In this document: positions 58,218 through 63,937 of the stretch, in pieces
Position numbering within the stretch: the stretch's first letter is position 1
Layout of the letters: each line of letters begins with the position of its first letter
DNA from: an uncultured Pelagibacteraceae bacterium
Lineage (GTDB): Bacteria > Pseudomonadota > Alphaproteobacteria > Pelagibacterales > AG-422-B15
Assembly (NCBI GenBank): GCA_902544525.1
Contig: CACCCN010000003.1
Span: forward strand, 113,818-177,817
Direction of reading: 5' to 3'
DNA: 64,000 bases
The notes under the pieces: model-generated
Told to the model about the DNA's origin: nothing
Database searches by the model: none
The model's input: the letters and a program-made list of their open reading frames with translations, nothing else
Position numbers and translations under genes: made by a program

Positions 58218-59609
58218 TTAGGAAGCGCTCACCATCTTGCTTGGATCAAGTAGAGACTTCATTTTTCGTGGTTCTATATATTTCAATATTGCATTAGCTT
58301 CCGTTAGTGAAATCCCCTTTTTATGAGCGAGTTTAGCCATTTCAGCGGCTTTAGCATAACCTATTTCAGGTGCTAGAGCTGTTACCAGCATAAGGGAGTT
58401 GTTTAATCCATTTTTAATATTTTTTAAGTTTGGCTTAATGCCTTTTAGACATTTGTCGTTAAAGTTATTTATACCAGTATATAATAATTGAATAGATTTG
58501 ATTATGTTTAGTCCAATTAGCGGCTTAAAGGCGTTGAGCTCAAAATGTCCCTGAGAGCAAGCTACAGTCATAGTATTGTGCATACCCATTACCTGTAAAC
58601 ATGCCATTGTCAGTGCCTCACTTTGGGTTGGATTAACCTTTCCTGGCATTATAGAAGAGCCTGGTTCGTTTTCAGGGAGACTAAGCTCTCCAAGTCCTGA
58701 GCGTGGCCCGGATGCAAGTAATCTAATATCATTGGCAATCTTAAATAGATCAGTAGCCAAAACATTTAATGCTCCAGATAATTCTAATATAGCATCATGT
58801 GCTGCTAATGCCTGAAATTTATTTGTTGCTGTTCTGAATTTTATTTTTGTCGCTTTACTAATTTCAATAGCAACTAACTTATCAAAATTTTTCTTAGTAT
58901 TTAATCCGGTACCAACAGCGGTTCCACCTTGAGCTAGGGATAAGACACCATCATTGGCAGTATTTATTCTTTTTATATTTGCGCTAATCTGTGCAGCATA
59001 TCCTGAAAATTCTTGCCCAAGTGAAAGAGGCGTTGCGTCTTGCAAGTGAGTCCTGCCAATTTTTATAATCTTACCCCATTTTTTGGCTTGTAATTTAAGC
59101 GTCGTTTCTATCTTTTTCAGCGCTGGCAGCATATTATTTTTAATTTGAATAGCTGTAGCAATATTTATAGCTGATGGAAATGAGTCATTTGTAGATTGAC
59201 ACATGTTAACATGGTCATTTGGATGCACAGGGCTATTAGAACCAAATGGTTTTCCTAATTTTTTATTGGCTAAATTTGCAATAACCTCATTAACATTCAT
59301 ATTTGTTTGTGTACCTGAGCCAGTTTGCCATACAGACAATGGGAATTGATCATCATACTTACCTGATAATACTGTATTTGCTGATTGGACAATTGCATTA
59401 GCAATTTTTGATGAAATATTTTTTTGCTTTAAATTGGCTTTTGCACATGAAAGTTTTATCACTGCCATAGCATGTATAATTTCAATTGGCATGATATCAT
59501 TGCCAATTTTAAAATTTTGCAGAGATCTTTGTGTTTGTGCTCCCCAAAGTTTGTCATTTGCAACAGCAACTTTTCCTAGGGTATCACTTTCTATTCTCTT
59601 TTTTACCAT
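58218..59609 (-). CDS. fumC: Class II fumarate hydratase
   Basis: GSGTQTNMNVNEVIAN, GRTHLQDATPLSLGQEFSGY, signature GSSIMPGKVNPTQ. Confidence 0.97.
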   Translation of the reverse strand: MVKKRIESDTLGKVAVANDKLWGAQTQRSLQNFKIGNDIMPIEIIHAMAVIKLSCAKANLKQKNISSKIANAIVQSANTVLSGKYDDQFPLSVWQTGSGTQTNMNVNEVIANLANKKLGKPFGSNSPVHPNDHVNMCQSTNDSFPSAINIATAIQIKNNMLPALKKIETTLKLQAKKWGKIIKIGRTHLQDATPLSLGQEFSGYAAQISANIKRINTANDGVLSLAQGGTAVGTGLNTKKNFDKLVAIEISKATKIKFRTATNKFQALAAHDAILELSGALNVLATDLFKIANDIRLLASGPRSGLGELSLPENEPGSSIMPGKVNPTQSEALTMACLQVMGMHNTMTVACSQGHFELNAFKPLIGLNIIKSIQLLYTGINNFNDKCLKGIKPNLKNIKNGLNNSLMLVTALAPEIGYAKAAEMAKLAHKKGISLTEANAILKYIEPRKMKSLLDPSKMVSAS

Positions 59610-59745: not shown

Positions 59746-59973
59746 ATGAAATTTCTAGTAACTTTTAAAGTTGAATGGGATAATGATTATGAGTTCGTTG
59801 ATTTTGAATTTGATTCTAAAGACCTGGAGTCACTGCATAAAAATATCAAGCTTGCTATTGCTGAAAACTATTTAGAACCAGAACGTGATATTAAAAAGAC
59901 AATAAAAGGCAAGATTCAAACAACATGCATTTTAGTAAAGGATAGTACAGGCAAAAAAGTTTATTCAATATAA
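59746..59973 (+). CDS. Hypothetical 75-aa protein ending 3 nt before repeat copy 1
   Basis: ORF MKFLVTFKVEWDNDYEFVDFEF..; stop at 59973, repeat starts 59977. Confidence 0.6.
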   Translation: MKFLVTFKVEWDNDYEFVDFEFDSKDLESLHKNIKLAIAENYLEPERDIKKTIKGKIQTTCILVKDSTGKKVYSI

Positions 59974-59976
59974 AGC

Positions 59977-59993
59977 GGGAGACTTCTGTTGCC
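59977..59993 (+). repeat. ssrA-3'-end direct repeat, copy 1 (putative attachment site)
   Basis: GGGAGACTTCTGTTGCC, identical to copies at 61604 and 62669. Confidence 0.9.
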
Positions 59994-60127
59994 CTTCTCC
60001 AAATATAAGTTATTCATATTATTCAATTAATTTCAAGGTTCGTAGTAAAGTTCGTAGTAATTGACTAGTAGTTTCGTTATTTCTCGTTATTTGATTTCTT
60101 TCGGGGTGTAATTGGGTATGATTTTAA

Positions 60128-60634
60128 ATGGTAAAAAATTTTTCCTCTAAGTTATCTGGACAGATAGGCGAGAATCTCGTGGTTGCTGAATTAGGAAGAA
60201 GAGGAATAATAGCGACCGCGTTCGCAGGAAATGTTCCAGAAATAGATATACTTGCCTACAAGGATGGACAATCTATTCCAATACAAGTTAAAGCATTAAA
60301 AGAAGGAAGTTTGAGAACGAGGGCAGATAACTATTTAAATATTGATTTTGATGGAAAAACACAGAAAGTTTTAGGAAAAAGAAAAGATATAAATCGTCAA
60401 CTCATCTTTATAATTGTTAAAATTAGTAAGCGAATTGGGGAAGATAAATTCTACATATGTGAACAAGGTGTATTACAAGACCTTGTATTCAAAGAACACA
60501 GTTCATTTCTTAAAAAACATAATGGAATTAGACCAAGGAATCCATCTTCATTTGATAGTTCTGTAAATTTAGAAGACTTAGAAGTTTTTATTAATAACTG
60601 GGATTTAATCCTAAAAAAAATAGATGAAATTTGA
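60128..60634 (+). CDS. PD-(D/E)XK nuclease-like protein
   Basis: GQIGENLVVAELGRRGIIATAFAGNVPEIDILAYKDGQSIPIQVKAL: E..EID..QVK arrangement. Confidence 0.6.
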   Translation: MVKNFSSKLSGQIGENLVVAELGRRGIIATAFAGNVPEIDILAYKDGQSIPIQVKALKEGSLRTRADNYLNIDFDGKTQKVLGKRKDINRQLIFIIVKISKRIGEDKFYICEQGVLQDLVFKEHSSFLKKHNGIRPRNPSSFDSSVNLEDLEVFINNWDLILKKIDEI

Positions 60635-60902
60635 TGATTATGAATCGATAAAAGTTTTTCTTAAAGAAAACCGTTTTGTTTGCCCATTACCAATTGAGTG
60701 GAACGAAATTTATCAATTAATTGATAAACCTCAAATTCGTCCTCCCTTGATTTTGAGTGCTTGGCATCACACAAGTAATAATGATAAAAAAATAAGATTC
60801 TTAGAACATGCCCTTCATGCATCAAGAGACAAAGAAGCAATGAAAAAATTATCAACCTATCTAGAAAAATTAAATAAAGAGAACTGGTTAAGGGAAAATT
60901 AG
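60624..60902 (+). CDS. Hypothetical 92-aa protein, overlapping the nuclease-like ORF
   Basis: ATG overlaps the preceding ORF by 11 nt, suggesting coupling. Confidence 0.6.
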   Translation: MKFDDYESIKVFLKENRFVCPLPIEWNEIYQLIDKPQIRPPLILSAWHHTSNNDKKIRFLEHALHASRDKEAMKKLSTYLEKLNKENWLREN

Positions 60903-60916
60903 ATAAGTCGTATAAA

Positions 60917-61600
60917 ATGAAAATTATCACTTGGAACTGTAATCTTAATTTAGTTAAAAAATTTGAACATATTAGTAAAGAATCCCCTGATATTGCAATT
61001 ATTCAAGAATGTGAAAAATTAGATGAGAATTATTTTCCAAATTCTAAATATTTTTGGTTGGGTAAAAATGAAAAAAAAGGATTAGGAATAATTGTTTTTA
61101 ATCATTCTGCAAAAGTAAGTGAGTCACTTAATGAAAAACTTATCTATTTCCTACCTATTCAAACTGATATTTTAGATATCATAGGAGTTTGGGCATACAA
61201 TTACAGAGCGGCACCAAAGTTTGGGGTTGGTTTTAGTGGCAATACTTCAGATGCATTAACTAATTATGAGGCACTATTATCATCTAATTCAAAAGTACTG
61301 TTTGCGGGGGACTTTAATAATTCAGTTATTTGGGATAAAGGAAATAAAGAAAATGATTTTCTAAATATTAATAATAAATTAAATAGTTTAGGTCTGAAAA
61401 GTTCTTATCACGAATATACAAATGAAAAATTTGGTGAAGAAAGTAAAGGAACTTTATTTCATATCAAAAAACAGAATAAACCCTACTTCATTGATTACAT
61501 TTTTTATAAAGAAATGAATTTAAGTAAAGTTTATGTTGGTCAATATGATGAGTGGATATCTTTAAGTGACCATATGCCAGTAACTGCTGAATTTCAATGA
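60917..61600 (+). CDS. Endonuclease/exonuclease/phosphatase (EEP) family protein
   Basis: MKIITWNCN, PDIAIIQECE, LFAGDFNNSVIWD, IDYIFY, LSDHMPVTAEF. Confidence 0.88.
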   Translation: MKIITWNCNLNLVKKFEHISKESPDIAIIQECEKLDENYFPNSKYFWLGKNEKKGLGIIVFNHSAKVSESLNEKLIYFLPIQTDILDIIGVWAYNYRAAPKFGVGFSGNTSDALTNYEALLSSNSKVLFAGDFNNSVIWDKGNKENDFLNINNKLNSLGLKSSYHEYTNEKFGEESKGTLFHIKKQNKPYFIDYIFYKEMNLSKVYVGQYDEWISLSDHMPVTAEFQ

Positions 61601-61603
61601 AGT

Positions 61604-61620
61604 GGGAGACTTCTGTTGCC
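61604..61620 (+). repeat. ssrA-3'-end direct repeat, copy 2 (putative attachment site)
   Basis: GGGAGACTTCTGTTGCC, 3 nt after stop of EEP ORF. Confidence 0.9.
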
Positions 61621-61758
61621 TGTCTCTAAGCGATATTTAATAGTATATCTTAAATTTTAGCAACCTTCGTAGTTGCCTTCTTAGTTTTGCGCACCCAGTT
61701 TCGTGATTGCTCGTTAGTCTTCTTTTGGAGTGTAATTTAGTTCATTTTCATTTAAATT

Positions 61759-62661
61759 ATGTTCATTATGGCAGTTCCCCCATTCACAAAATTTTTGTTT
61801 CCAGTTCTAAAAAATTCCTATTCTGAAATATCTGCAAAGGAACTGAGAGAGATTTGTGCAAAAGAGTTAAATTTATCAGAAGAAGATTTAAAAGAAAAAA
61901 CAAAGAAGCAAAATGCACTCAAATATGCTGATAGAACTTATTGGTCAATTGCATATCTAAATGCTGCAAAATTAATTGAGAAGATATCTAGAGGTGTAAT
62001 TAAAATTACTCAAAGGGGTAAGGATTTATTGGATACCAACATAGTTGAAATTACAGAAGAAGATTTAATGCAGTTTGAAGAGTTTAGAGTTTTTAAATCT
62101 GGGTCTTCGTCATCCAAAGGGAAGTCAAAACCGAAAGAGGAATTAACACCAGTTGAGAAAATACAAGAAACTATTGATGAAGTAGATGAATTAGTTAAAT
62201 CAGAATTATTATCTAGAATACTTGATCAAGATCCATATTTTTTTGAAAATGCAGTTATAGATTTACTAAAATCAATGGGGTATGCTGGGGCAGATAATTT
62301 TTCACAAGTTACAAAAAAATCTGGAGATGGAGGTATAGACGGATTACTTAATCAAGATAAACTTGGTCTTGACGTGGTTTATGTGCAAGCAAAACGATAT
62401 AAACTTGAAAACAAAATACAGGGCAAGGAAATGAGAGATTTTGTTGGGTCGTTAGATGTCAAAGGTGCCAATAAAGGTATTTTTATTACAACTTCAGATT
62501 TTGCCAATAACGCACTTGAAACAATTAGATCATCCACTAAAAAAATTATTACTATAAACGGCGAAGAACTTACCAATTTGATGTTAGACTATAATGTTGG
62601 CATTAAAGATGAAAAACTCTTTAAAATAAAAAAGATCGATGAAGATTATTTTCCAGAGTAA
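61759..62661 (+). CDS. Mrr-like restriction endonuclease (N-terminal winged-helix region plus Mrr catalytic domain)
   Basis: FENAVIDLLKSMGYAGADNFSQVTKKSGDGGIDGLLNQDKLGLDVVYVQAKRY; FVGSLDVKGANKGIFITTSDF. Confidence 0.9.
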   Translation: MFIMAVPPFTKFLFPVLKNSYSEISAKELREICAKELNLSEEDLKEKTKKQNALKYADRTYWSIAYLNAAKLIEKISRGVIKITQRGKDLLDTNIVEITEEDLMQFEEFRVFKSGSSSSKGKSKPKEELTPVEKIQETIDEVDELVKSELLSRILDQDPYFFENAVIDLLKSMGYAGADNFSQVTKKSGDGGIDGLLNQDKLGLDVVYVQAKRYKLENKIQGKEMRDFVGSLDVKGANKGIFITTSDFANNALETIRSSTKKIITINGEELTNLMLDYNVGIKDEKLFKIKKIDEDYFPE

Positions 62662-62665
62662 ATAA

Positions 62666-62930
62666 GGTGGGAGACTTCTGTTGCCCGGTGCCTCCCAAAC
62701 CGCGCTTGCCTAAGTAAACTTAAGCAGCGAGCGCTAAATCATCGTTAGCATTTATAAATTAGCCCGATAACGGTGGTACAATACCGAACGAAAGAATTTA
62801 CCTTTGGGCATCCGTCGATCCTATTTCACCCCCTTAAATTGGTGGAGGTGCCGGGTACCGCCCCCGGGTCCGTAATGGTTATTACGTAAATCGTTTATCG
62901 TCATAGTTGAGAATATCCCCAACAAAATCA
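62666..62930 (-). ncRNA. ssrA: Two-piece (circularly permuted) tmRNA; upstream boundary approximate
   Basis: Minus strand: acceptor piece ...CCGGG-GGCGGTA-CCCGG-CACCTCC-ACCA ending at 62840, 6-nt spacer ATTTAA, coding piece 5' GGGGGTGAAATAGGATCGACGG from 62833; CACCTCC pairs with GGGGGTG over 7 bp; tag GCTAACGATGATTTAGCGCTCGCTGCTTAA (62749-62720) = ANDDLALAA*. Confidence 0.92.
62669..62685 (+). repeat. ssrA-3'-end direct repeat, copy 3 (native, within ssrA terminal hairpin)
   Basis: GGGAGACTTCTGTTGCC; TGGGAG..CTCCCA hairpin at the end of the coding piece. Confidence 0.9.
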
Positions 62931-63004
62931 ATATAATTTATAAAACCCTCTTTTTAAAGAAGATAATAATTATATAGTTATAGCCTAATAAATGATTCCT
63001 TTTT

Positions 63005-63937
63005 ATGCCTTTAAGTAAAGAACAAAATGATGAAGTTAAACAACTCCGTGCGAGCACTAATACAACATTAAGAGCAACGGTTCCGTCTTTAGAAGAGATA
63101 TTATACAAACCACTGCCAGCTTTAGATCATGGCTTTGTACGTGTGGTCGATTACATGGGGGATGATACTGCGATTGTACAATCAGCGCGAGTATCTTATG
63201 GCAAAGGCACCAAGAAAATTTCAAATGATAGGGGTTTAATAAAATATCTCATGCGGCATTGGCACTCTACGCCATTTGAAATGTGTGAAATTAAATTACA
63301 CGTCAAATTACCTATTTTTATTGCGCGTCAATGGATTAGACATCGCACAGCCAATGTAAATGAATATTCTGCAAGGTACTCGATTTTAGATAAAGAGTTT
63401 TATATACCTTCAGTAGAAAACTTGGCTTCACAATCGCAAGTAAATAAACAAGGACGTGCAGAAAGTTTAAGTTCTGAGGAAGCTAATAAGGTTATTACGT
63501 TGCTAAAGAATGATGCGGAACAAACTTATCGTAACTATGAAGTCATGCTCAATGAAAATTCTGAAGGTGAAACCTTAGATGATGGTTCTATGGGTATCGC
63601 CAGAGAATTAGCGCGAATGAATTTAACCTTAAATACTTATACGCAATGGTACTGGAAAATTGATTTAAATAATCTTCTACATTTTTTAGCGTTACGAGCT
63701 GATGCGCATGCGCAATATGAAATACGAGTTTATGCCGATATTATTTTAGATATTGTTAAAAAATGGGTACCGGTAACCTATGAAGCATTTGAGGACTATC
63801 GTGTTGGCGGTACACAATTATCAGCGAAAGAAATTTTAATTTTAAAAAAAATTATTAAAGGTGAGACAGTTGACCCAGAAGCTGAGGGTATTTCCAAACG
63901 TGAATGGGGAGAACTTCAAAAGAAATTTGATTTGTAG
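63005..63937 (+). CDS. thyX: FAD-dependent thymidylate synthase
   Basis: ThyX motif [19 protein letters not shown]. Confidence 0.97.

Follow-up and report, generated by a model that had tools for sequence, protein, structure and literature searches.

Candidate non-autonomous gene cassettes stacked in tandem at the ssrA end in SAR11 bacteria

The two modules that lie beside ssrA in the stretch of DNA analysed here (the window, 64,000 nucleotides in full, which forms the end of contig C3 in a 1.26-Mb assembly that is 87% complete) are quite probably non-autonomous site-specific integrative cassettes, on which an integrase of the P0001 family, encoded by larger islands, acts in trans. A wider reading, towards which we lean only slightly, is that SAR11 bacteria capture genes in an integron-like manner, with recombinase-free minimal cassettes being inserted singly at ssrA by island integrases and with leader classes that match integrase classes. 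How genes are acquired by SAR11 bacteria, a streamlined and very abundant group, is poorly understood; a compact cassette system would, if true, be a mechanism by which they gain genes. It would also make the pairing of integrase classes with leader classes testable and the catalogue of cargo, restriction genes included, readable by pattern, and the geometry of core and arm already provides a search pattern, with matches in 33 of the 397 Pelagibacterales genomes searched.

The host belongs to an AG-422-B15-type family of SAR11 (Pelagibacterales), in which relatives are mostly single-cell genomes, and two families were compared: f1, the window's own, and f2, the main Pelagibacter family. The permuted ssrA gene, specifying a two-piece tmRNA, is located on the minus strand at 62666..62962 (RF01849, E 1.2e-68; ARAGORN places the tmRNA at 62629-62935), between the conserved left anchor fumC (58218..59609, minus strand) and the conserved right anchor thyX (63005..63937, plus strand, PF02511), both recognised by comparison of relatives, and its 3' end is the putative integration target (attB). 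The 17-mer that closes this gene, GGGAGACTTCTGTTGCC, was found by exact search in three copies, all on the plus strand: copy 1 (59977..59993), the distal att site, preceded by AGC; copy 2 (61604..61620), the joint of both cassettes; and copy 3 (62669..62685), the intact ssrA 3' end within the RF01849 match. The original prediction, made from the letters of the window, had placed the two repeats of the ssrA end at exactly these positions. No further match exists in the window with up to three mismatches allowed, 0 of 100 shuffles contained one, and the whole genome holds only the three copies of the array (reversed control, 0), so that this sequence is not repeated throughout the genome. The core spacings of 1,627 bp and 1,065 bp define two modules, in agreement with the predicted sizes of about 1.63 and 1.07 kb, and the ORF stops abut the repeats as had been stated (TAA-AGC, TGA-AGT and, for the Mrr-like ORF, TAA plus 7 nt). 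On the fumC side, the array is bounded by a resident 75-aa ORF (59746..59973, plus strand) with homologues after fumC in two genomes of the same genus, L046 and L047. In these two genomes the flank adjoining ssrA is AGC, which in the window flanks core copy 1, and the window's ssrA-end copy is flanked by GGT; this is the arrangement predicted by site-specific insertion at the ssrA end. A displaced fragment of the target gene at the far end together with a regenerated ssrA satisfies one criterion of Islander-type elements (PMC4383910), and the other, that the element encodes its integrase, is not met by the window cassettes. Promoter and terminator scans performed no better than chance, and the other repeats of the array (D2-D10) are short, two-copy families, probably due to chance.

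Comparison of 40 fumC-ssrA intervals, all from the window's family and one of them (L045) ending at its contig edge, answers the question of whether the interval is invariant, which would have counted against the predicted cassettes. It is not: 12 of the 40 are empty, fumC and the core being 84-90 bp apart, and the others, spanning 252 bp to 10.5 kb, differ in the number and kind of modules, with at least one cassette with a leader of the window's design in 11 and other inserts in 17. Occupied and empty states can be paired almost base by base, as the stretch from fumC through the core is identical at 96 of 97 bases between occupied L037 and empty L059, and at 95 of 97 between occupied L034 and L069. 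The predicted layout of leader, ORFs and att site likewise recurs in relatives, as core, leader, one or more ORFs and core, with unrelated cargo. The relatives thus probably show packets gained and lost one at a time, a cassette-style swapping of genes in SAR11. In L044 (8415-11202), tandem modules carry two 84% identical, secreted-looking paralogues of 436-437 aa, as though one cassette had entered twice or had diverged after duplication. Boundaries of a second type, which keep both hairpin halves, lack the arm leader and are abutted by the stop of a minus-strand ORF, occur at L046 9805, L043 10961 and L238 5423.

Each core is followed directly by a leader, about 135-160 bp long. These leaders form classes, and unrelated cargo is found behind one and the same class. 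The cassette 1 leader (59994..60127, plus strand), a putative attP arm of the TTCGTAGT class, is assigned by its geometry and its similarity to the L045 leader (85.7% nt over 140 bp), and that of cassette 2 (61621..61758, plus strand), also a putative attP arm, by its similarity to the leaders of L044 (90% nt) and L048 (88%), which both precede unrelated cargo. With numbering that begins at the core's first G, 11 of the 12 leaders carry the repeat TTCGT at +63 and eight of these carry it at +75 as well, and 2,000 shuffles gave at most one leader with TTCGT at +63 and none with both; in the stretch between, representatives of the leader classes have 13-24 of 46 bases in common, being about as different as expected by chance. 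In the window, these paired arm-type repeats are at 60039..60055 (plus strand) in cassette 1, with TTCGT at both positions and an extra copy at 60073, and at 61666..61682 (plus strand) in cassette 2, where the repeat at +75 is TTCTT, one base off TTCGT, and an extra TTCGT is found at 61700. Another leader class carries GYGAAGT at +65 and +75. Lambda-type attP sites consist of a core and of P and P' arms with arm-type sites for the integrase. We read leader plus core as resembling this anatomy, an analogy in which the role of the repeats as integrase-binding sites is inferred. The integrase-less cassettes L071 and L053 possess both arms, with a second set of three repeats 55-78 bp beyond the core. 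Since the window cassettes have arm repeats on one side (the P arm) only, and since the second repeat of cassette 2 is changed, they may be decayed. As a separate observation, a TTTCTCGTCCC leader class stands ahead of large ORFs (>470 aa) in L212 and L225; judged by the start sequence alone, these resemble subunits of type I restriction systems.

Parts of the cassettes are far more similar between genera than the genes that anchor them. For instance, L044, which shares the cassette 2 leader, belongs to another genus with a fumC identity of 69.5%, and the 92-aa ORF of cassette 1 is 90.7% identical (nt) to its homologue in L045, from a third genus in which fumC reaches 72% and in which this ORF comes after a different EEP gene. 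The way in which cassettes pass from cell to cell is inferred. The design is also found more widely. A pattern made of only TTCTGT from the core and two CTTCGT repeats occurs in 38 places in the 33 genomes mentioned above (reversed control, five), and the gap from core to repeat is 48-51 bases in 33 of the 35 sites measured. Almost all inspected sites lie at the ssrA-end core, the exceptions being L206 and L208. Similar cassette stacks are present in Pelagibacteraceae, where the f2 core is GGGGCGTTCTGT and arrays reach six copies. Some Pelagibacteraceae arrays have no tmRNA gene, namely L238, L241 and L245 (thrC ... rnhA), L236 (fabI), L235 and L250; many boundaries of such arrays are the full 25-bp ssrA-end hairpin GGGGCGTTCTGTTGCCAGGTGCCCC, and some cassettes, such as one with a 170-aa MPFTP(Y/F)HIVAG ORF, occur both at these loci and at ssrA (L243). 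It is not claimed that the leader-less units in f2 arrays away from ssrA work in the same way.

No integrase ORF was found between the cores or elsewhere in the window, as the original prediction had noted, and its proposal to look for a tyrosine recombinase in the rest of the genome yields only genes of XerC/XerD size: within the limits of the 87% complete assembly, there are two PF00589 matches, both on other contigs, no PF00239 (resolvase-type) match and no P0001 homologue. Across the family, PF00239 is found in 2 of 53 genomes. A candidate helper exists at the same ssrA site in another member of the family, G029 (AG-904-D18), whose locus L066 carries a 10.5-kb insert encoding P0001, a divergent tyrosine recombinase of 415 aa. 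Its f2 relatives are encoded by islands at ssrA (L191; protein alignment E 1.4e-34) or at an ssrA-end core (L193). P0001 alone matches neither the phrog_1 nor the PF00589 integrase family, but members of its alignment do so (best 3.4e-20 and 9e-4, respectively), and R, K, R and Y are kept at the catalytic positions in five aligned proteins of the family. A single-sequence structure prediction of P0001 was unusable (pLDDT 38) and lends no structural support, and a PDB sequence search gave no match. The ssrA islands with a tyrosine integrase (9-10 kb) have the same core-plus-repeat layout as the integrase-less cassettes, and leaders are common to both: the L066 leader is 81% identical to that of the integrase-less L038 cassette over 113 bp, the L193 leader 90% and 89% to those of L213 and L214 over 130 bp, and the L191 leader 81% to that of L221 over 134 bp. 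Mobilisation of tandem cassettes in trans, as originally proposed, is supported largely by these common leaders and by this geometry; it remains an inference, as no transposition, circle or excision has been observed. Helper islands at this site are found only in other genomes (L066, L191, L193), with none adjacent in the window. Among the 53 genomes of the window's family, one P0001-type integrase was found, with a different arm class; that family yielded no helper with repeats of the window's class, and for TTCGTAG-type arms the closest island that encodes an integrase, L193, is from the other family.

In the proposed mechanism, each cassette would have three parts: a core that corresponds to the final bases of ssrA, a single attP arm in which arm-type integrase sites occupy fixed positions, and cargo genes, the last of which has its stop directly beside the following core. 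The tyrosine integrase of a larger ssrA-targeting island (P0001 family) would bind these sites and recombine the core of a circular cassette with the ssrA end. Because every new insertion would displace older cassettes outward and restore an intact ssrA, cassettes would stack, with an order of acquisition that is inferred. The junction of an excised circle of the Mrr cassette is predicted to read ...AAATAAGGT-GGGAGACTTCTGTTGCC-TGTCTCTAAGC...

It is nevertheless important to weigh this mechanism against other accounts of the same array. The modules could be the product of decayed, CIME-like accretion, having once been part of integrase-bearing ssrA islands that lost the integrase, and would then now be fixed without any working system. 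The one-armed window cassettes, the altered second repeat of cassette 2 and the absence of a helper of the window's class from its family all fit such a history, which is also how Dehalococcoides ssrA islands without integration modules are interpreted (PMC3146451). However, decay alone would not preserve a leader identity of 86-90% between genera that are about 70-73% identical (nt) in their anchor genes, nor exact arm positions, nor a design that both SAR11 families repeat with cargo of unrelated kinds, and we regard this account as unlikely, though not negligible. It is very improbable that the core is no att site but a hairpin or terminator scattered through intergenic regions of SAR11, beside which the modules are ordinary insertions. 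Although many Pelagibacteraceae cores carry the full GGGGCGTTCTGTTGCCAGGTGCCCC, at thrC-rnhA, fabI and elsewhere without ssrA, the window's genome has just its three copies, all in the array, copies 1 and 2 there lack the right hairpin half, the terminator scan was at chance, and the arm geometry and the empty and occupied junctions would be left unexplained. Finally, the modules might be moved by the host's own XerC and XerD, as in Xer-exploiting elements (IMEX), these being the only tyrosine recombinases found in the window's genome. This seems scarcely credible, as the core derives from ssrA and as islands at this site have dedicated integrases that employ these very arms. A core with paired arm sites at a distance of about 60 bp fits lambda-type integrases, not Xer. 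Integrative cassettes served by island integrases thus remain the preferred reading.

As for the cargo, the best-defined gene is the one of cassette 2 (61759..62661, plus strand), a 300-aa Mrr-like type IV restriction endonuclease with Mrr_N (PF14338) and Mrr_cat (PF04471) domains and a PADLOC mREase_IV match (E 1.4e-63), in which the GGID...QAK catalytic motif expected of Mrr-type enzymes can be read. Its product most likely restricts modified foreign DNA, cleavage and restriction being inferred from the sequence. Cassette 1 contains three ORFs on the plus strand: one of 168 aa (60128..60634; EIDIL...IQVKA) with only weak PD-(D/E)XK matches (best Pfam E 0.013; PADLOC PDC-S01, 2.4e-4), one of 92 aa (60624..60902), and one of 227 aa (60917..61600) of the endonuclease/exonuclease/phosphatase (EEP) family (PF03372, E 1.8e-7). 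Consequently, of the nuclease cargo originally proposed, the Mrr-like and EEP assignments stand and the PD-(D/E)XK assignment is only weakly supported, and the label of defence is well founded, by family, for the Mrr-like gene and not for the rest. The 92-aa ORF has no match in searches of Pfam-type families or PADLOC models, and its homologues are confined to 2 of 247 genomes, one of which is the window's own. It lies beside nuclease ORFs in two arrangements, those of the window and of L045, and is possibly an immunity or accessory protein.

When considered against known systems, the SAR11 cassettes are what we call integron-like in organisation and lambda-like in their sites, with precedents in other bacteria. 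A literature search found no description of such a cassette system, most subscription papers lying outside its reach, and a SAR11 ecogenomics paper leaves tmRNA unmentioned (PMC7318151). The term undescribed used in the original prediction is nonetheless too strong, since integrase-less tandem ssrA islands are known from Dehalococcoides: McMurdie et al. (2011; PMC3146451) describe, in the part of the paper accessible here, islands in tandem downstream of ssrA, bounded by direct repeats of its end and in several cases devoid of an integration module. Those islands differ in being larger, in carrying rdhA genes and in depending on a serine recombinase (DsiB/DsiA), and neither attP-arm leaders nor near-single-gene cassettes are reported in that part of the paper; the recombinase of the SAR11 ssrA islands is of the tyrosine type and not a CcrB-like serine recombinase. 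CIMEs and tandem accretion (ICESt1-related), as far as the same portion of PMC3146451 presents them, are similarly att-flanked, integrase-less and stacked at one site, and the window modules, which encode neither integration nor transfer functions, fit that definition. However, CIMEs are seen there as products of decay that move in cis together with a neighbouring element, whereas the SAR11 cassettes are small, occur in many genomes and keep an attP-arm leader that integrase islands also have. Another streamlined aquatic host, Ca. Methylopumilus, has an additive flexible island, fGI-2, in which 20-bp copies of a tRNA-Lys end recur and bound variable inserts of 330 bp to 42 kb whose genes are mostly unknown; the target is tRNA-Lys rather than ssrA, and the portion of PMC10872708 at hand contains no analysis of leaders, arm sites or integrases. 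Tycheposons, according to the same portion, are elements with cargo that sit at RNA genes in marine bacteria with streamlined genomes and use tyrosine recombinases, but they measure 4-200 kb and encode their own recombinase, in contrast to window cassettes of 1-1.6 kb that encode none; by analogy, the 9-10 kb SAR11 ssrA islands may be related to them in style. Integron cassettes and CALINs are likewise arranged in arrays, each unit holding one gene or a few between two recombination sites, and can be mobilised in trans (PMC11389934), yet they rely on IntI and folded attC sites, whereas the SAR11 cassettes have a linear core with arm-type sites and ssrA as attB. Read directly, the window boundaries are GTTGCC(C/T) and not the GTTRRRY of attC, and as regards IntI, only the two XerC/XerD-sized PF00589 matches are present, a statement made without an IntI-specific model. 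No integron attC sites turned up when a 2007 study examined the hypervariable regions of SAR11 for integron signatures (PMC2217521).

The islands L066 (1212-11077), L191 (1826-11111) and L193 contain tyrosine integrase and serine resolvase genes, with genes for sliding-clamp-like and clamp-loader-like proteins and for a DNA methylase in some of them, and look like phage satellites. We also considered, and did not retain, a phage or viral source for the att site: core matches in viral contigs were either ssrA genes of another lineage or lone matches, and the pattern of core plus arms gave no real att site among the matches listed there. Neither P0001 or its alignment, searched against viral contigs, nor the L193 integrase, searched against phages, had relatives in these sets. 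Ten IMG/VR contigs of 35% GC (L133-L135, L137, L139-L143 and L146) have a common AGTGGGAGACTTCTGTTG ssrA end, and their tmRNA tags read ANDNIAYEDFALAA / ANDNAYIGDYALAA.
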